Part shown: in pieces, positions 9,694-20,539 of the stretch | Numbering within the stretch: position 1 is the first letter of the stretch | Layout: the number at the start of each line of letters is the position of its first letter | IMG/VR virus record: IMGVR_UViG_3300048592_001410 | Coordinates: 1 to 20,539 of that record | DNA length: 20,539 nt | Origin: a virus | Direction: 5' to 3' (one strand) | Notes under the pieces: generated by a model | Told to the model about the DNA's origin: nothing | Databases searched by the model: none | The model's input: only the letters and a program-made list of their open reading frames with translations | Program-made: the position numbers and the translations under genes

Positions 9694-10107
9694 ATGATTC
9701 ACACCCCCGCCGAACAGGCCAACATCGATGCCATACACCGGTTCATGGAGGCGGAGGCGATCCAGGACTGGGACACGGTCTATCAGTTCATCGCGCCGGA
9801 TTGCGTGGCTTACGCCCCTGGGGGGGTAGTCACGCGCGGACACGATGCGATGCACGCGAGCGACGAGGCCATGTTCTCGCGGCTCGCATCGTGGCGGCGG
9901 GAGATCCTGGACATTGCCGCGGACGGGGACAAGCTCGTCTTTCGCTGGCGGGCGGAGTTTGTCCTCCACCCTTCGGGAAAGCGCGGGGCGTTCGAGGGCC
10001 TGGCCTGGACTCACTGGCTAAACGGTCAGATGACCGAGACGTGGTCGTACTTCGATAGCGCCGAAGTGCGGCGCCAGATGACTCCGGCGAAGGAGGCAAC
10101 TCAGTGA
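9694..10107 (+). CDS. SnoaL/NTF2-like protein (phage moron)
   Basis: A 137-residue protein on the strand opposite to the phage operon. It has the layout of small SnoaL-like NTF2-fold proteins: an N-terminal helix pair (ANIDAIHRFMEAEAIQDWD), then YQFIAPDCVAYAPGG, a central strand KLVFRWRAEFVLH and the typical end EGLAWTHWLNGQMTETWSYF with SAEVRRQ. Length matches the family, whose members include cyclases, isomerases and many of unknown role. The ATG at 9694 is chosen because GAGGAGGCGG lies upstream. The 3' end overlaps the oppositely oriented gp10-like gene by 7 bases, so it is wedged tightly between two tail genes. Its substrate is unknown. A run of seven G lies at 9830-9836. Confidence 0.8.
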   Translation: MIHTPAEQANIDAIHRFMEAEAIQDWDTVYQFIAPDCVAYAPGGVVTRGHDAMHASDEAMFSRLASWRREILDIAADGDKLVFRWRAEFVLHPSGKRGAFEGLAWTHWLNGQMTETWSYFDSAEVRRQMTPAKEATQ

Positions 10108-10529
10108 CCTAAGCGGTCCACGCCGAAGATGTCGTCGAAGATCTCGGCCCACTCCTCGGCCGCCGTCTTGAGCCGGCGCCGGACGGTGGGCCAGAGGAAG
10201 TAGCCCTCACGGCCGCGGTGCGGTGGGAACTGGCGCGTGCGCGGCCGGGAGCCGCCCCCGAACTCCTGCCCGTAGAACTCGGGCACCCGGGCGCCGCCGG
10301 CGGTCACGCGCGCCTCGCGGCCGGAGGCCTGCGGACGGATGGAGCCCTTCGAGCGCCTCGAAACCGATGGGCCAGCCTGGGAACGGGCCTCGTCCGCCAG
10401 GCCCTCGACCAGGCGCTTGTTGACCTGCTGGAGCTGACGCGCGAGCTCGGGGTCGGCGGCGCGCAATTCGCGTTGTAACTCCTTGAGGCCGCGCACCTCG
10501 GCCGCCAGCATCCGGTCCTTCGTCACCAT
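10101..10529 (-). CDS. HK97 gp10-like protein
   Basis: A 142-residue basic protein beginning MVTKDRMLAAEVRGLKELQR. The first 50 residues are helical. The middle RRSKGSIRPQ and PEFYGQEFGGG, then GYFLWPTVRRRLKTAAEEWA, follow the usual pattern of HK97 gp10-family neck or head-tail joining proteins (RTGxLRxSI, then Y..EFG, then P..FL.PA). The start is placed three bases after the stop of the tail tube gene; a much longer in-frame extension would run back through the tube gene and is rejected. The ribosome binding site is weak, suggesting coupled translation. Its place after the tube gene, not before it, is somewhat unusual. Confidence 0.65.
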   Translation of the reverse strand: MVTKDRMLAAEVRGLKELQRELRAADPELARQLQQVNKRLVEGLADEARSQAGPSVSRRSKGSIRPQASGREARVTAGGARVPEFYGQEFGGGSRPRTRQFPPHRGREGYFLWPTVRRRLKTAAEEWAEIFDDIFGVDRLGH

Positions 10530-10531
10530 CG

Positions 10532-11503
10532 CTACGCCGCCGTGTCCGTCGTGCGCTGCTCGATCGTGATCACCGGGGTCACGCCATCGGCCAGGGCCTT
10601 GAACGGCCGCGGCTGCATGACGATGTCCGGTCCCCCAACCTTGGGCGTCGAGCCGCGGTAGGCCACCTTCGGGATCGTGACGGTGAGCTTGAACGGGCCG
10701 CCGCCAGCGATGACGGTCGGACTGATAAAGGCGAGGACGAGTTGCGCCTGCGTGCCCGCAACCCAGTCGGCGTAGGCGCCGAGGTCCTCGAACTCGCACT
10801 CCAGCTCGCCATCGATCACCGCTTCGCCGTTGGCGAGCGGCTCGCGTTTCACATTGCCGAGGCCGCGCCGGTCGGTGGCGAGGGCGTTCGTGCCTTTCAC
10901 GCTGGCCGACTTCACGAAGGTCGAGACGCCCCCAACAGTGAGCGCGCCCTCGGTGAAGACGAAGACCTCGGAGGCGGCCGGATAGCTGGCGACGGCAAGG
11001 GCGGTGCTGGTCTGCACGGTCTCGAAGTCGAAGGTGGTGGCGAGTTTGAGCGCCTCGTCGAGCGCGCATTTCAGCTGCCAGTCGACGACCTTCCCGCCCT
11101 CGTACGTGAACGGCCGGCTCACCCCCGTGATGTCCGGCTTGCCCACCTGGAGGGTGAGAGAGAGGCCCTTGAGGGCGTTGGCATCCGGGGTGATGACCGC
11201 GCTGCGTTCGGAGCCGGCCACGAGGGTGTTCGCGTAGCTCCCAAGGCAGTGCTTGAAGAGGAGGCCGAAGCCCTTCGTCTGGACGTCGAACTCGACCTGG
11301 CCGCCGGCGGCCTTGATATAGCGCTTCTCCCGGTCCGTTCGGAGGAAGCGGCCGGTGCCGAGGCCGCGGCTCTCGATCACGCCGACGTCGGCGTCGAGGC
11401 CCTCGCTGTTGAACTCCAGGAAGCGCGCGACGGCTGCCGCGGTGCCGTAGGCGGACTCCTCGCCGATGCCGAGTTGGGCGCCGAGGCCCGATGCGATCAC
11501 CAT
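10532..11503 (-). CDS. Major tail tube protein
   Basis: A 323-residue protein, beta-rich throughout, beginning MVIASGLGAQLGIGEESAYG, a typical tail tube opening (a Gly-rich start followed by E-x-x-YGT). Other typical stretches are GGQVEFDVQTKGFGLLFKHC, GKVVDWQLKCALDEALKLAT and NGEAVIDGELECEF. The length fits the two-domain tube family of long-tailed phages. The ATG has an AAGGAG ribosome binding site, and the gene lies between small head-tail joining genes and the gp10-like and chaperone genes. It polymerises around the tape measure to form the tail tube. Confidence 0.85.
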   Translation of the reverse strand: MVIASGLGAQLGIGEESAYGTAAAVARFLEFNSEGLDADVGVIESRGLGTGRFLRTDREKRYIKAAGGQVEFDVQTKGFGLLFKHCLGSYANTLVAGSERSAVITPDANALKGLSLTLQVGKPDITGVSRPFTYEGGKVVDWQLKCALDEALKLATTFDFETVQTSTALAVASYPAASEVFVFTEGALTVGGVSTFVKSASVKGTNALATDRRGLGNVKREPLANGEAVIDGELECEFEDLGAYADWVAGTQAQLVLAFISPTVIAGGGPFKLTVTIPKVAYRGSTPKVGGPDIVMQPRPFKALADGVTPVITIEQRTTDTAA

Positions 11504-13655: not shown

Positions 13656-14972
13656 TTAGAACCCCGTGATCGTGCAGAAGGCGGCCGGGCGCGGAACGGC
13701 GAAGCCGGCGCGCATGGAAGCGAGCAGGGCGACGATCCCGCGGATGAACCAGTCGCTGTGCGCGTCCGTCATCGACATCGAGACGCCTTCGCGGATCCAG
13801 AGGCTGGCGCCGCGACGGTAGGCGCCAGCGAGCGGCGTCCCGTCCGTGAAGGCGACGTTGGAGACCATCGGCACGCCCCAGACCTGGTCGCCTCCGGCCT
13901 GCGATGGCGGGCCGAAGAGGTAGGCGCCATTGGCGTCCTTCTCCAGGCGCAGGTCCTGGGCGTCGTTCGGGTGAAGGCCCAGCGAGTCGGGCTGAAGGTT
14001 GGCGATGCGGATCAAGGTGAACGACTTGTGCACCGCGTCAGGCCGGCTGTCCGTCCCCTTCGCCTGCGTGCTGATGCCGGAGGTGTTGTAGATCCCGCGC
14101 AAGTTGGGGGCGGTGCCGTTCCCGCTCAGGAGCTGGCCGTCGAGGCGCTCCAGGACGCCCTCCACCAGCTCACTCTCGATGATGGCGCGCACCTGGCCGG
14201 CGTCGGCGATGGCGCGCTTCGTCGCCGGAATGAAGTGCTTGATCTCCTGGACCAGCACCTGCCGCACTGCGAACGCGACACCGCTCTCGGGCGCCGCCCC
14301 ATCGGCGGAACTGGTGGCTTCGGCCACCTCGGCCGCGTTGTTCGTGCGCGAGGTCTGCTCGACGTACTCGATCATGTCGCTGTCGGTGTCGCCGACGTTG
14401 ACGAGGCCGGCGACCACGCGCGGCCGGCGGAGCAGCTCCAGCAGCTCGGTCTGGCGGTCGGCGAGGATGAAGGCGCCAGCCTGGGTGTCCGCGAGACCGG
14501 TGATGAGCGTCTTGAACTCGGTCCGCTCCAGGACCTTGACCGGTGCCGTTGCGACGCGGGCGTCGCTCATCTCCAGGATGCCGCTGCCCTTGAGCTGCTT
14601 GTAGCCCTCGGAGGCGAGCAGGCGGTCCGCCGCGCGACCGCGCGTGGCGAAGGCGACGGGAGCGCCGTCCTTGCGCTCGGGGTCGCCGGCGAGTGGCCGC
14701 TTCGGCTCGCCCACCGGCGCCTTGCCACTGATGCCTTCGATCTCCAGGAGGCGGTTGAGCTTCGCCTCGATCTGGGCGGCCTCATCGGCAAGGACGGAGT
14801 AGCCCTTGTAAGCCGTGTCCACCTTCTCGAAGTGATCGCCCTCGGTCGGGTCGACGCCGCCGGCGATCATCCCGTCCTTCAGCTTCTCCGCCTCGGCGAA
14901 GGCGACGGCAGCCTTGGCATTGGTGTCGCGCAGGGCCGTGCGCAGGTTGTCGATCGAGATGGTCATGCTCAT
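13656..14972 (-). CDS. HK97-family major capsid protein
   Basis: A 438-residue protein. Residues 1-110 form a charged helical delta domain (LADEAAQIEAKLNRLLEIEG) of the kind removed by the prohead protease. From about residue 145 the HK97 fold pattern appears: TEFKTLITGLADTQAGAFIL, a long stretch IKHFIPATKRAIADAG with RAIIESELVEGVLERLD, the hallmark LLSGNGTAPNLRGI (281-294), then LGLHPNDAQDLRLEKDANG and WGVPMVSN. It builds the icosahedral shell. The ATG has a perfect TAGGAGG ribosome binding site that overlaps the protease stop. Synteny with protease and portal is typical except for the OLD gene inserted upstream. Confidence 0.93.
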   Translation of the reverse strand: MSMTISIDNLRTALRDTNAKAAVAFAEAEKLKDGMIAGGVDPTEGDHFEKVDTAYKGYSVLADEAAQIEAKLNRLLEIEGISGKAPVGEPKRPLAGDPERKDGAPVAFATRGRAADRLLASEGYKQLKGSGILEMSDARVATAPVKVLERTEFKTLITGLADTQAGAFILADRQTELLELLRRPRVVAGLVNVGDTDSDMIEYVEQTSRTNNAAEVAEATSSADGAAPESGVAFAVRQVLVQEIKHFIPATKRAIADAGQVRAIIESELVEGVLERLDGQLLSGNGTAPNLRGIYNTSGISTQAKGTDSRPDAVHKSFTLIRIANLQPDSLGLHPNDAQDLRLEKDANGAYLFGPPSQAGGDQVWGVPMVSNVAFTDGTPLAGAYRRGASLWIREGVSMSMTDAHSDWFIRGIVALLASMRAGFAVPRPAAFCTITGF

Positions 14973-14981
14973 GGCTGCCTC

Positions 14982-15728
14982 CTACCGTTCGGCGCCGTTG
15001 GCGGCGGCGAGGGACTGGATTTCGCCGGCCAGGTCGTGGATGTCGTTGAGCCGCCCGAGGTCGGCGTTGGCGTTGCGGGCGCCGGCCTTGAGGGCGGCGT
15101 CCCAGCGGGCACGCAGGTGTGCGGCCGATTTCGCGTTCAGGGAGCGGACGACGGCCTGCGGGTCGAGCGCTGTCGGGGCGGCTGCGACCCGCTGCGACTT
15201 CGCGCCGATCAGCTCGGTATCCGGATGGCGGCCGACCAGCACGGGGCCGATCTCAAACAGCTCCAGCCGCTTCAGGTGGCGGACGTACTGGCCGTTCTGC
15301 GCCTTCTCGTCGCTCCACTCCTTCGCCTCGAAGGCGAACGAGAATTCCCGCACGACGGGCGGCGTGGCCGTCATGCCGGTGTGAATGGAGCGGGCGTACT
15401 GGCCGCTGATGCCGTCGTCGTCGAGGAAGAGCCGCGCCTTGACGCGGAGCCCCTTGGAGTCCTCGACCGCCTGGAGCGCCTGGCCTACGGGCGGGATGGT
15501 CCAGACGTGCGACCAAACGACGGGCGGGAGCCCCTTCTCCTGGAGGGTCTGCGTGAAGGCGCCGGGCTCGATGACGTCCGCGTCGCCGAAGAAGTCGGGG
15601 CGGTCGGGCGTGCCGAAGATGGCGACGTACGCTTCGAAGGTGCCGGTCGGCTCGCCCTCGCCCAGCAGCTTGTACTCAGTGGGGCAGTGCGCGACGCCGT
15701 GAAGGTCGGACTTCCACTCGATGCGCAC
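14982..15728 (-). CDS. Prohead maturation protease (S78-like)
   Basis: A 248-residue protein with the herpes/HK97 prohead protease pattern: FEAYVAIFGTPDRPD, GDADVIEPGAF, the catalytic His in PVVWSHVWTIPPVG (His74) and the catalytic Ser in VVREFSFAFEA (Ser130), then LKRLELFEIGPVLVG. The C-terminal 70 residues are helical and may act as the scaffold-like part. It cleaves the capsid delta domain during maturation. I start it at the GTG 15726-15728, preceded by GGGGAAGGGG. An in-frame TTG at 15755 is possible but lies inside the T-tract of a terminator hairpin. The gene is separated from the portal by the OLD insertion. Confidence 0.85.
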   Translation of the reverse strand: MRIEWKSDLHGVAHCPTEYKLLGEGEPTGTFEAYVAIFGTPDRPDFFGDADVIEPGAFTQTLQEKGLPPVVWSHVWTIPPVGQALQAVEDSKGLRVKARLFLDDDGISGQYARSIHTGMTATPPVVREFSFAFEAKEWSDEKAQNGQYVRHLKRLELFEIGPVLVGRHPDTELIGAKSQRVAAAPTALDPQAVVRSLNAKSAAHLRARWDAALKAGARNANADLGRLNDIHDLAGEIQSLAAANGAER

Positions 15729-15750: not shown

Positions 15751-15784
15751 AACAAAACGGGCCGAAGCTAATCGCTCCGGCCCG
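15751..15784 (-). terminator. Intrinsic terminator-like hairpin, minus strand
   Basis: Read on the minus strand, an 11-bp stem with one mismatch (CGGGCCGGAGC, loop GATTA, GCTTCGGCCCG) is followed at once by TTTTGTTT. That is the form of a Rho-independent terminator. It lies 23 bases before the protease GTG. The TAG stop of a short minus-strand frame, possibly the remnant of the com-like gene, falls inside its loop. Confidence 0.6.
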
Positions 15785-15834
15785 CGTGGGGCTCCGGCGT
15801 CGGCGCGCTGGGGCGCTCTGCCAACGAACCTAAC
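15768..15834 (-). pseudogene. Possible C-terminal remnant of the split com-like gene
   Basis: In this minus-strand frame the sequence reads LAERPSAPTPEPHAGRSD and stops at a TAG within the terminator loop. A Pro/Glu/His/Arg-rich tail like this is common after the zinc finger in phage Com-like proteins. If joined to the zinc-finger segment at the other side of the OLD gene it would give a protein near the usual Com length of about 60-70 residues. This is inference. The rest of the gap to 15995 holds an 8-bp inverted repeat and presumably the OLD promoter. Confidence 0.3.
15825..15834. repeat. Junction motif CGAACCTAAC, left side of OLD cassette
   Basis: The ten bases CGAACCTAAC occur identically at 19697-19706, left of the toxin-antitoxin cassette, and a related CCCTAAC lies at 9477-9483, left of the SnoaL cassette. 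It marks the border between minus-strand phage genes and a plus-strand cassette in each case. On the minus strand it reads GTTAGGTTCG. Here it lies 17 bases after TTGCGC, so a minus-strand promoter is an alternative reading. Confidence 0.4.
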
Positions 15835-15858
15835 GGGTGGAATTGAGGCAGCGCAAGG

Positions 15859-15883
15859 TCTCGCGCTTCATCGTCGCGCGAGA
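15859..15883. repeat. Inverted repeat upstream of the OLD gene
   Basis: A perfect 8-bp inverted repeat, tctcgcgc and gcgcgaga with a 9-base spacer, lies about 113 bases upstream of the OLD-family start codon. It may be an operator or leader hairpin for the cassette. No T-tract follows on either strand. Confidence 0.35.
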
Positions 15884-15995
15884 GGGTGGTCGGCGTTACC
15901 GGCTCGTTGAGATCGCAGCCTGGGGCGTCGCCGGGTAAACTTGTCCGACCCGATTGCCTTCCGACCAAGTGCTGCGGGCCGAGAGATGATGCGTC

Positions 15996-18092
15996 ATGCC
16001 ACAAATGAAGGCCCTGAAATTTCGAGTTCAAAACTTCCGCAACATCGAAGACAGTGGCTGGGTCAATCTCGAGTCGGTTACCGCTCTAGTCGGACGCAAC
16101 GAGTCCGGTAAGACGGCGCTTCTGAAGGCCCTCCACAAGTTCAATCCGGCCACGGATGAACCGTACGATCCGCTCAAGGAGTTTCCGAGGGATCGACTTC
16201 GGAGCGAGTACCAGGACGGCCGGGATTGGCCTGTCTGCTCAGTGCTTTTCGAACTGGGAGACAAAGTGCGCGAACAACTCCGGGCGCTCGGGGATGGACC
16301 GGAGCCTCCGCGCACGGTGGAGGTCACCCGCTTCTACGACGGCAGCCTAGAGTACGCGTTTGAACCTGCCGTGGTTGACGCTCCCGTTTCACCCGCAACC
16401 GTGCTGGACGCGTTAGCGGCCTTTGCGACTTCCGCGAGGCGGCTGCGCCCGATAGATGGATATGACGAAGAGGCGCTCGCTCCACTTCGTGGGCAGTATG
16501 CAAACTGGGCCGACGAGCGGCGAGCTGCTCTCCTCCCGTTCGAGGATTCCAGATCGCCCGAGGCGATGGCCGAGCTCCAACAGGTGGTCACAGACGCCAA
16601 CAACTTCTCAAACCCTCTGACGGCCGAGATGGTCGAGAGCGTAACGCAGGCTGCAGGGGCAGTGCTCGCCGCTGCGAAGATTCCGCCCGTCGACGACCGC
16701 GCCTGGGAAATTGTGAAGGCCGGCCTCCCGGTTTTTATCTATTTCGAGAACTATGGTGTGTTGGACAGTGCGGTGTATCTGCCGAGGCTGCTTGAAGACA
16801 TGAAGGTCAACCCTCGTGATGAGAGGGTGCGGACGGTCAACGCGATGTTCAAACACGTCAAGTTGCCAGCGGAAGAGATCTTCGACTTGGGCCGCGAAGA
16901 GGTTACCGAGGCACAGGCGAAGGGAAGCGAACCCACGGCTGAGATGTTGGAGCGCGATCGCCAGCGCAAGGACAGGAGGGCGATCTACCTAAATGCTGCG
17001 TCGCTCGACATCACCAAACGGTTCGCTGCATGGTGGCAGCAGCGCCGTCACAAGATCTCCTATCAAGCAGATGGCCCCTACTTCCGTATCTGGGTGTCAG
17101 ATGACAGGCGTCCAGACGTTGACCTTGAACTGGAGTCCCGGAGCAAGGGATTTCAATGGTTCTTCTCATTCTACCTTGTGTTTCTAGTCGAATCGGAGGA
17201 AGGGCATAAGGACGCGATCCTTCTCCTCGATGAGCCAGGGCTCCACCTTCACCCAACAGCTCAACAGGAACTTATTGGGTTCTTCGAGACGCTCTCGGCC
17301 ACTAATCCGATCGTCTACAGCACACATTCCCCGTTTCTTATAGACCCGCAGAGAATCCACCGTGTACGGCCAGTCGTGGAGTCGGAAACAGGCATATCAC
17401 ATATTTCGAATGACACGTGGCCAGCAGACAGGGACACGATATTCCCGCTCCAAGCCGCCGCTGGCTACCAGATGATGCAGGACCTTTTCAAGCATCGAAA
17501 GAACGTGCTCGTGGAGGGCCTGTCGGATTACCTGTACATCTACGCCTTTTCGCTAGCTCTCGTCGCCAAAGGAAAACCCGGACTGCCCGATGATGTCCAT
17601 GTCGTGCCGTGCGGCGGAACGCAAATGGTCACGCAGATCGCGGCGCTGTTCCTGGGTGAGCAGCTCCGACCGGTAGTGATCTTGGACGCCGACAGCGCGG
17701 GTCGCGGCCGTCGGACCAGCTTGCTCAAGAATCTCTACGCCGGACGCGAACGGGCGATTATCGGAATCGACGAGGTCCTTGGCGTTACAACCGACTGTGA
17801 GTTCGAGGACCTTCTGGACGAGGCCAGCCTTCTCGGGGCTGTGAAGGAGCTTGTAGGTAGGTCCTTGAGCCTCGCCGCGGAGGACCGGAACGCCGGGACT
17901 CTGCCGGATCAAATCGCGCATGCTGCGACGAGGAAGGGTGTCGTGCTGCCGGACGGATGGCGAGCCGACGCAGCGAGGCGGATCGTGGCTACGTGGGCCG
18001 CAAACCCGTCGAGAATCCCTGAAAGCGTGCTCCAGCGAGCCGAGACCTTGATAAACATGGTTAAGGAACGCGCGGCTGAGACTGAAGTCTGA
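15996..18092 (+). CDS. OLD-family ATP-dependent endonuclease (AAA + TOPRIM)
   Basis: A 698-residue protein encoded opposite to the phage operon. It has a Walker A motif GRNESGKT (33-40), a long coiled/helical middle, a degenerate signature region ESRSKGFQWFF (380-390), Walker B AILLLDEPG with Asp412 and Glu413, and an H-loop YSTHSPF (441-447). The C-terminal TOPRIM nuclease domain has VLVEGLSD with Glu507, VILDADSAG with Asp564 and Asp566, and CEFEDLL (601-607). This is the domain order of OLD nucleases such as P2 Old and GajA. No UvrD-like partner (GajB) or reverse transcriptase is adjacent, so it looks like a stand-alone class 1 OLD, expected to exclude competing phages. Base composition is visibly less GC-rich than the neighbouring phage genes, indicating transfer. 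It interrupts the portal-protease junction. Confidence 0.9.
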   Translation: MPQMKALKFRVQNFRNIEDSGWVNLESVTALVGRNESGKTALLKALHKFNPATDEPYDPLKEFPRDRLRSEYQDGRDWPVCSVLFELGDKVREQLRALGDGPEPPRTVEVTRFYDGSLEYAFEPAVVDAPVSPATVLDALAAFATSARRLRPIDGYDEEALAPLRGQYANWADERRAALLPFEDSRSPEAMAELQQVVTDANNFSNPLTAEMVESVTQAAGAVLAAAKIPPVDDRAWEIVKAGLPVFIYFENYGVLDSAVYLPRLLEDMKVNPRDERVRTVNAMFKHVKLPAEEIFDLGREEVTEAQAKGSEPTAEMLERDRQRKDRRAIYLNAASLDITKRFAAWWQQRRHKISYQADGPYFRIWVSDDRRPDVDLELESRSKGFQWFFSFYLVFLVESEEGHKDAILLLDEPGLHLHPTAQQELIGFFETLSATNPIVYSTHSPFLIDPQRIHRVRPVVESETGISHISNDTWPADRDTIFPLQAAAGYQMMQDLFKHRKNVLVEGLSDYLYIYAFSLALVAKGKPGLPDDVHVVPCGGTQMVTQIAALFLGEQLRPVVILDADSAGRGRRTSLLKNLYAGRERAIIGIDEVLGVTTDCEFEDLLDEASLLGAVKELVGRSLSLAAEDRNAGTLPDQIAHAATRKGVVLPDGWRADAARRIVATWAANPSRIPESVLQRAETLINMVKERAAETEV

Positions 18093-18251
18093 CCGGTTCA
18101 CGGAGAGCTCGCCCGATCGCCGATGAGTGGGGGGTTGGCACGCATTCCGGCGCTTGCACCGCGGGCACCGGAACACCACGGTCCCGTCCGCCTCGCAGAT
18201 GAGCTTGCCGCACGACTCGCACCGGATCGGCCGCAGTCCCTCCGTCGTCAT
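18093..18251 (-). pseudogene. Com-like zinc-finger protein, 3' end disrupted by OLD gene
   Basis: The frame starts at an ATG overlapping the portal stop (ATGA). Residues 1-41 read MTTEGLRPIRCESCGKL, then a short loop, then VVFRCPRCKRRN, giving a four-cysteine zinc ribbon at Cys11, Cys14, Cys29 and Cys32. This matches the Mu Com family, a small zinc protein that in Mu binds the mom mRNA and activates its translation. After about residue 41 the similarity ends and the frame runs antisense through the OLD gene to a stop at 17553, giving an implausible 232 residues. I infer that the OLD cassette was inserted within the gene. Whether the zinc-finger part is still expressed is unknown. No mom gene is visible. 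Confidence 0.6.
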
Positions 18252-19528
18252 CGTTCGTCTCTCGCCGCCTTTGTCGCCTGCAACCTCGCCAGCCGCTCCT
18301 CCATCGCCACGGCGCCCTCGCCGATGGGCATCATGTTCAGCGGCATCCAGAGCATGTCCGCGCGTGGGTCGTCGACGCGGTCGCGGTTCTCCAGGGCGCG
18401 CTTCTCGTTCGGCGTCAGGAAGTCTGCTGCCTTCAGCGCCTCGAAGCGTTCCTTGGGGTTGCCCTTCAAGACCTCGTTCAGGTCGAACTCAACGTACTGG
18501 CCGGCGAGGAGGGGCTCGGGGTCGATGAGCTGGGCCTGGAGCGTCTCCTCGATCATCGTCAGCCACGGCCCGAAGGTGTCCTGGTAGAGCATGATGTGCT
18601 GCTCGGTGATGTTGCTGAACGTCGCCCGGTCGAGGATGCCGACCACTGGCGGCGGCACGTCGTAGGCGGCCGCGCACTCCTCGCGGGTCAGCCTGCGCGT
18701 TTCGACCACCTGGGCATCGACGAGCGAATGGGACATCGGCTTCCAGTCGAGCCCGCCCTCCAGGACCGCCAGCTTGAAGGCGTTGTCCACGCCGCCGTGG
18801 AGCGTCGCCGTCTGCTCCTGCAGACGCTTCGCCGTGTCGGGCTTGAGCTGCTGGTCCGTGACGAGCACGCCGGACGGCCGGGCGCCATTGTCATAGGAGG
18901 CGGCCGTCAGCCGCTGGGCTGCGTCCTCGATCATCAGCGTCCGGCGCAGCGGCTCCATGGGCGAGAAGGCGACCAGGTCGTTTCCGGTTCCCCACCACTT
19001 GAAGTGCAGCACGTCCTCCGGCGCGAACGCGAGCCGCTGGCCCGCGGCCCCATGAAAGACGTAAGCCTCCACGGGGACCGATTTCCCGGGGACGACCTCC
19101 CAGAACCGAAAGGACGAGGTCCAGAGCTCGGTCGGCGGCTTGCCCGGCCCGGGCCGAACCTTCACGACCACCGCGTTCCCGTAGACGCAGATGTTGCCGA
19201 CGATCGCCTGCTTCCAAGCGAAGGGCGGCTTGCCCGGCATCGGTCGCGCCAGGGAATCAGCCAGCCAGCCGTCCCGCTGCCGGAGCCGTTCGCCGTCGGC
19301 GCCGAGGGCGTAGGTCTTCAACGGCAGCCGGCCGATCCCTCGCGCGAGCTTGTTGATGACGACGTTCAGCCAGAGCTGCCCGCGGTACATCTGTTCGTAG
19401 GACTGCGAGGCGCTACCGACCAGGGGGAGCGTACCGAGGCCTGGCCGGAGGCCCGAGGTGGCCGTTTGCCCACCGAAGGGAAACCCCTTAAGCCCGATGC
19501 CGGCGGCCGCGTTCCTGAGGAGCGTCAC
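18248..19528 (-). CDS. HK97-family portal protein
   Basis: A 426-residue protein with the phage portal family pattern: RGQLWLNVVINKLARGIGRL (49-68), GNICVYGNAVVVKV (111-124), PEDVLHFKWWG (170-180), SGVLVTDQQL, then EECAAAYDVPPPVVGILDRA (283-302) and NITEQHIMLYQDTFGPWLTM. It forms the dodecameric DNA entry ring at one capsid vertex. I place the start at GTG 19526-19528, which forms a GTGA overlap with the upstream small membrane protein; the sequence before it in frame is Arg/Pro-rich shadow. The length is close to the HK97 portal. Its stop overlaps the com-like start. Confidence 0.93.
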   Translation of the reverse strand: MTLLRNAAAGIGLKGFPFGGQTATSGLRPGLGTLPLVGSASQSYEQMYRGQLWLNVVINKLARGIGRLPLKTYALGADGERLRQRDGWLADSLARPMPGKPPFAWKQAIVGNICVYGNAVVVKVRPGPGKPPTELWTSSFRFWEVVPGKSVPVEAYVFHGAAGQRLAFAPEDVLHFKWWGTGNDLVAFSPMEPLRRTLMIEDAAQRLTAASYDNGARPSGVLVTDQQLKPDTAKRLQEQTATLHGGVDNAFKLAVLEGGLDWKPMSHSLVDAQVVETRRLTREECAAAYDVPPPVVGILDRATFSNITEQHIMLYQDTFGPWLTMIEETLQAQLIDPEPLLAGQYVEFDLNEVLKGNPKERFEALKAADFLTPNEKRALENRDRVDDPRADMLWMPLNMMPIGEGAVAMEERLARLQATKAARDER

Positions 19529-19692
19529 TCGTCTCGCTCCAGGCCCTGGGCGATGAAGACCAGCGCGGCGCCGGCGAAGATCAGCGCGGCGGGTGGGTAG
19601 ACCTGGTAGAGGCCGATGGCCGCGAGGCCGAACCCCAGGGCCTCGGCGGCAAGCGCCACGGCGGCGCGTAAGCGGTGCCCAACTCGTGTCAT
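19525..19692 (-). CDS. Small two-helix membrane protein upstream of portal
   Basis: A 55-residue protein beginning MTRVGHRLRAAVALAAEALG and ending FIAQGLERDE. It has two hydrophobic segments, at about residues 10-30 and 33-50, joined by a YPP turn, so it is likely a small membrane hairpin. Its stop overlaps the portal GTG (GTGA), which supports translational coupling. The ribosome binding site is weak. Small membrane proteins just before a portal gene are seen in other siphovirus clusters, but I cannot name a function. Confidence 0.6.
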   Translation of the reverse strand: MTRVGHRLRAAVALAAEALGFGLAAIGLYQVYPPAALIFAGAALVFIAQGLERDE

Positions 19693-19696
19693 GACC

Positions 19697-19706
19697 CGAA
19701 CCTAAC
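19697..19706. repeat. Junction motif CGAACCTAAC, left side of toxin-antitoxin cassette
   Basis: Second exact copy of the ten-base motif found at 15825-15834. It lies between the start of the minus-strand membrane protein and the plus-strand toxin-antitoxin cassette. On the minus strand it reads GTTAGGTTCG only five bases before the ATG, too close for a normal leader if it were a -10 element. Confidence 0.4.
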
Positions 19707-19738
19707 ACGCCCGCAGCGAACGTCGAGCCCCGCCGAAC

Positions 19739-19782
19739 CGATAGCAGCCACGCTATCGCCAGCGATACCGTCTGTGCTATCC
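19739..19782 (+). promoter_or_regulatory. Probable operator/promoter of the toxin-antitoxin operon
   Basis: A perfect inverted repeat CGATAGC-N6-GCTATCG (19739-19758) is followed by two further related half sites, CGATACC (19763-19769) and GCTATCC (19776-19782). The four GATA-type boxes are spaced about 11-13 bases apart and end ten bases before the toxin GTG. This is the layout expected for autoregulation by the HTH antitoxin. The TGTGCTATCCT segment could contain the -10 element. Confidence 0.5.
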
Positions 19783-19791
19783 TTGGTTCGG

Positions 19792-20166
19792 GTGGCGAAG
19801 TGGCTCATCAGAACGTTCACAACGGACGCGGGCGGCAAGCCGGTCGACGACTGGATCCGCTCGCTGGACCCCGCCGCCCGGGCGGAACTGGCCTGGACCA
19901 TCGAGCTCCTCAAGCGGCACGGGATCGAACTCGGGATGCCCTACGTCCGTTCACTCGGCGACGGCCTCTGGGAACTGCGGGCGCGGGAGGCGGACGGGAT
20001 CTACCGGATTCTCTACTTTCACTGGAAGGGCCGGACATTCGGCTTGCTGCACGGATTCACCAAGAAGACTCAGGCCACGCCAAAGAGAGAACTCGACATG
20101 GCCAGGACGCGCCGCGCCCGGTGGCTCGGTCGACAGACTCAAGAGGGGAGAAAGCGCGATGGATGA
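19792..20166 (+). CDS. RelE/HigB-type toxin (Gp49-like)
   Basis: A 124-residue basic protein of the phage Gp49-like RelE/HigB superfamily. It shows TDAGGKPVDDWIRSLD (11-26), GLWELRAREADGIYRILYF (58-76) and the family end LLHGFTKKTQATPKRE (85-100). Such toxins usually cleave mRNA at the ribosome and are neutralised by a partner HTH protein encoded just downstream. I use the GTG at 19792; a TTG at 19783 is an alternative. No good ribosome binding site precedes either, so translation may be leaderless. The stop overlaps the antitoxin start by 8 bases. The toxin-first order fits the HigBA arrangement. Confidence 0.85.
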   Translation: MAKWLIRTFTTDAGGKPVDDWIRSLDPAARAELAWTIELLKRHGIELGMPYVRSLGDGLWELRAREADGIYRILYFHWKGRTFGLLHGFTKKTQATPKRELDMARTRRARWLGRQTQEGRKRDG

Positions 20167-20539
20167 CTGGGACAAGCTGAAGGCCGAACTGCTCGAAGAC
20201 CCGGCAACCCGTGCCGCCTACGAGGCGCGGCGTCCCGCCTACGAGCTAGCGAGCAAGCTGGTCGAGCTTCGGACGCGCCTTGGGCTCTCGCAGCGGCAGC
20301 TCGCCGCAAAGGCCCAGATGACACAACCCGAAATCGCGCGGTTGGAGTCGGCTGCGACCCAGCCCACGTGGGAGACGGTTTCCCGGGTGCTTGGCGCGGT
20401 CGGTGCTGAGGTCGACATCCGGGTCCGCGACGACCATGGGAAGCTGGTAAAGGTTTCGGTGCTGACGCATCCACCGGTAGCTGGTGTCCCGCGCACCTCC
20501 CGCCGCCGAGCTTCGCCAGCCGAAGCACAGCCAGCCTAG
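20159..20539 (+). CDS. HigA-type XRE-family antitoxin
   Basis: A 126-residue protein with an XRE/Cro helix-turn-helix at about residues 34-85: LVELRTRLGLSQRQLAAKAQ, then MTQPEIARLESAATQPTWET. It overlaps the toxin by 8 bases, and its ATG has an AGAGGGGAG ribosome binding site within the toxin 3' end. It should neutralise the toxin by binding it and repress the operon at the GATA-type operator upstream. The N-terminal 30 residues, with EDPATRAAYEARRPAYELAS, are typical of HigA-type partners of Gp49 toxins. The C-terminal tail is Arg/Pro/Ala-rich. The stop codon is the last three bases of the window, so the gene is complete. Confidence 0.88.
   Translation: MDDWDKLKAELLEDPATRAAYEARRPAYELASKLVELRTRLGLSQRQLAAKAQMTQPEIARLESAATQPTWETVSRVLGAVGAEVDIRVRDDHGKLVKVSVLTHPPVAGVPRTSRRRASPAEAQPA

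Follow-up and report, generated by a model that had tools for sequence, protein, structure and literature searches.

The gap between the com gene and the prohead protease gene in the head operon of a lineage of Chloroflexota siphophages is a permissive accessory-gene (moron) site, and an OLD-family nuclease gene is one of its occupants. The gene was found in phage record IMGVR_UViG_3300048592_001410, whose 20,539 bases, analyzed here in full and referred to as the window, carry the structural operon of a siphophage, encoded on the minus strand. The OLD gene lies antisense to this operon with its reading frame intact, and a second contig, IMGVR_UViG_3300048591_001379, shows the same arrangement with 100% identity. 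The explanation we favor, with moderate confidence, is that of a temperate phage whose com-protease site houses a single-gene OLD system that would exclude infecting phages during lysogeny. The features around the site are as follows.

13656..14972, minus strand: major capsid protein, downstream of the protease (Pfam Phage_capsid, E=2e-36)
14982..15728, minus strand: HK97-type prohead protease (Pfam Peptidase_S78, NCBIfam proheadase_HK97)
15757..15785, minus strand: GC-rich hairpin followed by a T tract, terminator-like, between cargo and protease on the late-gene strand
15834..18143, no strand: variable cargo segment of ~2.3 kb; homology to relatives ends at these edges, the right edge lying within 15819-15833
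15996..18092, plus strand: OLD-family nuclease gene, ATG to stop, 698 aa
18144..18251, minus strand: Com-like zinc-ribbon gene, conserved part (PHROG 13819 gpCom, E=1.5e-5)
18248..19708, minus strand: portal protein (Pfam Phage_portal, E=4e-77; NCBIfam portal_HK97), conserved part from ~19600

Six related phages carry six unrelated cargos at one address

Portal relatives were taken from viral and genome contigs, which gave a multi-locus alignment of six loci, the window plus five. Among these related loci the portal is 92-96% identical in five and 70% in the sixth. All six have the portal, com and protease flanks and, in the same place, an unrelated cargo:

Window: OLD, antisense
L006: MerR-type regulator, small membrane protein and CopZ-type Fe-S metallochaperone, antisense
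L095: HEPN protein, sense
L096: IS481 transposase and GH10 enzyme, sense
L098: TIGR04255 protein and two small ORFs, antisense
L188: PIN protein and a 306-aa partner, antisense

By tblastx, no cargo is shared among the six inserts beyond low-complexity matches. The genomes of three relatives belong to one family and that of L188 to the same class, within the Chloroflexota; the loci on chromosomes represent decayed prophages of metagenome-assembled genomes, and L006, a viral contig from a metagenome, has no known host. Since the cargos include nondefensive ones (metal resistance, GH10), membership in the site is in itself no proof of a role in defense. Two of the inserts merit a separate mention. 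The two small ORFs beside the TIGR04255 protein (L098:8825-9788, minus strand) may form, as a cargo unit, an accessory or defense module of a kind not described so far, while the PIN protein and its partner (L188:2971-4319, plus strand) sit in a very short prophage remnant consisting of the portal C terminus, com, cargo and the protease N terminus.

The com gene, which was absent from the initial annotation, lies between portal and OLD, starting at 18251 and overlapping the portal stop codon (ATGA). Its conserved part comprises the first 36 codons with a CxxC..CxxC pattern and is 86-97% identical in five relatives. It has no native stop, its 3′ end being overwritten by the cargo, such that in the window the frame stays open, antisense into OLD, to 17553. 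On the other side, the protease probably starts at the GTG at 15728, judging from homologues, in which this start is conserved.

Homology between the window and L006 ends at 18145 and restarts at 15819, and the boundaries agree to ~15 nt across the six loci. The left edge directly follows the CPRCKR codons of com in every locus, and the right edge coincides with (T)TAGG, or lies only a few bases from it, in five of the six. Searching with a com DNA pattern returned no viral relatives beyond contigs already known, and one locus retrieved with a right-flank DNA pattern (L150) has no matching protease and was discarded as a chance match. Among eight loci of distant relatives with larger portal-protease gaps, there was no convincing case of antisense cargo.

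Outside this clade, portal and protease are indeed neighbors as a rule, as the initial annotation had assumed: the gap measures only ~13-70 nt in the closest portal relatives, and the two genes are adjacent in annotated Arthrobacter, Mycobacterium and Gordonia phages too. The position of OLD, which had been called unusual, thus does depart from the norm, but this is a property of the site, filled with a different cargo in each close relative, more than an oddity of the gene.

A dedicated site-specific system, such as integron-like cassettes or a transposon aimed at the 3′ end of com, would account for the closely similar edges in six loci; GTTAGG, found at the right edge in three of them, resembles an integron R′ box, and one cargo (L096) includes an IS481 element. 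We nevertheless consider such a system unlikely compared with rare illegitimate recombination followed by homologous exchange. L006 and L096 have GTAGG instead and L188 has neither motif, there is no recombinase shared across the six loci, and the edges could be held in place by purifying selection acting on com and the protease leader. As for integron cassettes in particular, reading the edges of the six loci revealed neither a complementary R″ box nor an integrase. The ends of the cargo show no consistent terminal or direct repeats, only chance-level matches of 7-9 bp.

Foreign composition and persistence of the cargo

The cargo segment of the window has a GC content of 59.6%, compared to 67.9% in its flanks, and the cargos in general are GC-poorer. 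This difference is also visible at third codon positions, where GC is 0.69 in OLD versus 0.88-0.93 in the portal, protease, capsid, tail tube and tape measure genes. By composition, OLD is foreign.

The relatives further inform on the fate of cargo in decaying prophages. In L095, L096 and L188, the protease is truncated just downstream of an intact cargo. L096 additionally harbors a degenerate com remnant, a HEPN ORF and a right flank with hairpin; at first sight a sign of cargo moving between sites, this is actually the same site present a second time, in a decayed state. Its HEPN ORF is 88% identical at the DNA level to the HEPN cargo of L095, and the pair shows a dN/dS of 0.19 over ~243 codons, which argues that selection keeps the cargo while the surrounding phage genes decay. 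Note that the loci were found via their portals, and so the pattern of intact cargo in decayed phage carries some ascertainment bias.

A conserved hairpin and two further cargo junctions

The terminator-like hairpin is present in all six loci, directly upstream of the prohead protease. Such an element in the middle of a head operon is unexpected. Its stem is kept across the six loci, with no two-sided compensatory changes among them. As a suggestion only, the hairpin may terminate late transcription after the cargo. Its conservation complicates the picture of a simple read-through late operon, which counts against our favored explanation.

The com-protease gap is not the only place where the operon carries cargo. 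A second and a third site, both with genes antisense to the operon, are occupied in the window by:

19675..20539, plus strand: HigB/HigA-like toxin-antitoxin pair in the terminase-portal gap (Pfam Gp49, E=6e-29, and HTH)
9694..10107, plus strand: SnoaL-like protein among the tail genes (Pfam SnoaL, E=1e-15; ORF open from 9604)

In relatives, the terminase-portal gap holds HicA/HicB (L006, L095 and L096) or nothing (L097), and at the junction equivalent to that of the SnoaL-like gene, L097 has a HAD hydrolase (9955-10665). Between the small and large terminase genes of L095 there is also a MazF/PemK-type toxin with a small partner ORF, again antisense (L095:5311-5842, minus strand).

Regarding orientation, four of the six cargos at the com-protease site are antisense, the two sense ones being those of L095 and L096. 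Over all sites, 11 distinct modules can be counted, of which 9 run against the operon (two-sided binomial p ~0.065), a bias that is suggestive only.

A solitary OLD protein with mixed class affinities

The product of 15996-18092 is a member of the OLD family and not a chance similarity. An ABC ATPase, a long helical insert and a TOPRIM domain follow each other in the same chain. The protein matches Pfam AAA_15 (E=2e-22), as well as AAA_21, and the PADLOC Old model (E=4e-22); the OLD-like_TOPRIM model scores 21.9 bits, slightly below its curated cut-off of 23.2, and the TOPRIM fold of the structure model matches OLD chains. The key ATPase and TOPRIM residues that the initial annotation had picked out in the 698-aa ORF were confirmed and are mostly conserved among 10 relatives (24-54% identity). 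Walker A (GRNESGKT, residues 33-40) and Walker B (ILLLDE, including D412/E413) have residues that are invariant across OLD relatives. In the TOPRIM domain (E507, D511, D564, D566 and E604/D605), E507, D511 and E604/D605 are invariant across the 10 relatives, D564 is kept in nine, the exception being the most distant one, and position 566 is D or E.

With com, portal and protease as the adjoining genes, OLD fits class 1 as defined previously (PMC10568477) by its gene context. It had been proposed that no GajB, reverse transcriptase or other partner is adjacent, and this holds. Neither OLD nor the annotated plasmid relatives inspected have beside them a gajB-type UvrD-like helicase, a reverse transcriptase as in class 3 (retron) systems or an AriB TOPRIM partner as in PARIS, although a partner encoded far away in the host is conceivable. 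Rfam gave no matches within the window, and PADLOC AriA matches to OLD span the generic AAA part only. The plasmid- and virus-borne relatives (27-54% identity) appear solitary too, those on viral contigs having no obvious partner; one Streptomyces plasmid has an HNH endonuclease gene upstream of its OLD relative. In two GTA-like phage contigs, the tail/lysis end carries an OLD relative of 53% identity (L003:1-2130 and L004:973-3231), the latter adjoining an IS5-like transposase.

Structure modeling gives a less uniform answer. We used an AlphaFold model of the whole protein (mean pLDDT 84) and one of the TOPRIM domain alone (pLDDT 87). With the former, Foldseek returned the class 1 protein TsOLD (6P74) as the top match (E=1e-11); it is the closest full-length structure and also the top sequence match among solved structures. 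The isolated TOPRIM model, in contrast, aligned best with class 2 BpOLD (Z 11.9, rmsd 3.5, 167 residues), as compared to class 1 TsOLD (Z 9.5, rmsd 3.6, 138 residues). PtuA and SMC heads, which topped the VIA-align list for the whole model, were set aside, as their alignment is limited to the ATPase part. Against the viral structure library, matches were weak and partial throughout. OLD shares ~21% identity with P2 Old, over 173 residues, and next to none with YbjD. The proposed class 1 assignment therefore stands as regards gene context (a single gene), but the TOPRIM domain, as modeled, resembles class 2 at least as well as class 1. OLD is best described as part of a solitary ~700-aa OLD lineage, ordinary-looking but divergent.

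What OLD might do for the phage

Most likely, OLD is a superinfection-exclusion moron that acts at the time of lysogeny. In the lysogen, a promoter of its own would drive its expression, and the protein would sense an infecting phage, upon which its ATPase-gated TOPRIM nuclease would act on nucleic acid and halt the infection. A search for a sigma-70-like promoter before OLD found none. The archetype is P2 Old, encoded at an exchangeable hotspot between gpA and portal, which excludes lambda and is triggered by loss of RecBCD function (PMC10568477, PMC9122126); P2 Old reportedly also cleaves a host tRNA (cited in PMC13261556).

How would a phage avoid being harmed by its own defense gene? Plausibly, OLD is silenced by opposing late transcription: once the phage's own prophage is induced, transcription of the structural genes might switch the antisense gene off, which is a weaker part of the proposed mechanism. 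We regard this as a better guess than the reverse, OLD damping late genes, because of the precedent of Tha in Staphylococcus aureus (PMC11087260).

A wider reading, which is possible but which we hold only tentatively, is that the late operon of this Chloroflexota siphophage lineage is a rack of exchangeable, mostly antisense modules at three or more fixed junctions, with defense and toxin-antitoxin genes switched on in lysogeny and off by structural-gene transcription, and that OLD represents a separate solitary lineage with a class 1 context and a class 2-like TOPRIM domain.

We also asked whether OLD might instead serve its own phage or host, as a helper in DNA repair or recombination whose place among the head genes reflects a role in packaging or maturation. 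OLD proteins do process DNA ends in vitro (PMC10568477), and an archaeal OLD protein reportedly acts in the cell cycle (PMC12796447). A packaging role, however, sits poorly with a gene that is antisense to the head genes and of different composition, and OLD relatives at 27-35% identity reside on plasmids, far from head genes. Moreover, relatives carry unrelated cargo in the same slot, and so OLD need not have a packaging role to be there. Overall, we deem this quite improbable.

Least probable, and in our judgment very unlikely, is the idea, building on the suggestion of the initial annotation that OLD could damp late gene expression, that antisense expression of OLD lowers the protease and capsid genes, making OLD a lysis-lysogeny regulator: its orientation, the com frame that overlaps it and the mutual antisense regulation documented in phage noncontiguous operons (PMC11087260) would allow for this, but OLD transcripts head away from the protease toward com and portal and could therefore counter nothing but transcription that comes in from the portal, L095 and L096 with their sense cargo have no such antisense gene at the site, and the hairpin (15785-15757) may already separate the transcription units.

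Significance and comparison with known systems

With exclusion by a lysogeny-time moron as the preferred reading, the main interest nonetheless centers on the site as a hotspot for cargo within the head operon of these Chloroflexota phages. The prophage defense hotspots described in the literature cited here adjoin cos sites, repressors or integrases, while this one lies inside the head-morphogenesis block. Its occurrence in little-known Chloroflexota phages widens the range of places where new defense genes can be sought, and metagenomes can be mined for the com-protease gap, a short address defined by its anchors. The site further allows one to test directly whether antisense defense genes are silenced by late transcription, one route to avoid self-attack. 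The solitary ~700-aa OLD group, in turn, bears on whether single-gene OLD proteins defend broadly.

The closest parallel is P2 Old and the gpA-gpQ defense hotspot (PMC9122126, PMC10568477). There, as here, a temperate phage encodes a single-gene ABC-ATPase/TOPRIM protein, and a segment of 1-5 kb with high turnover lies beside the portal gene. The present site differs in its place within the head operon, flanked by com and protease, in the size of the OLD protein (698 aa versus 586 in P2, with ~21% identity) and in its Chloroflexota host. Of the structurally characterized proteins, the class 1 OLD of Thermus scotoductus (6P74) is ~170 aa shorter than the protein described here and is the weaker TOPRIM match, while class 2 OLD proteins, that is, GajA of Gabija (BpOLD, 6NK8; XccOLD, 6NJV-6NJX), provide the best match to the isolated TOPRIM domain; gajB, however, is not adjacent here.

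With respect to gene arrangement, the layout at the OLD locus fits a noncontiguous phage operon. In the Tha/Ith noncontiguous operon of S. aureus prophages, defense and phage genes likewise oppose each other in one locus, and opposing transcription in such operons helps to make defense and lytic states exclusive (PMC11087260). In the Tha/Ith case it is the inhibitor gene that is antisense, within the cI operon, whereas here, as known from the gene layout, the putative defense gene itself runs antisense to the late operon.
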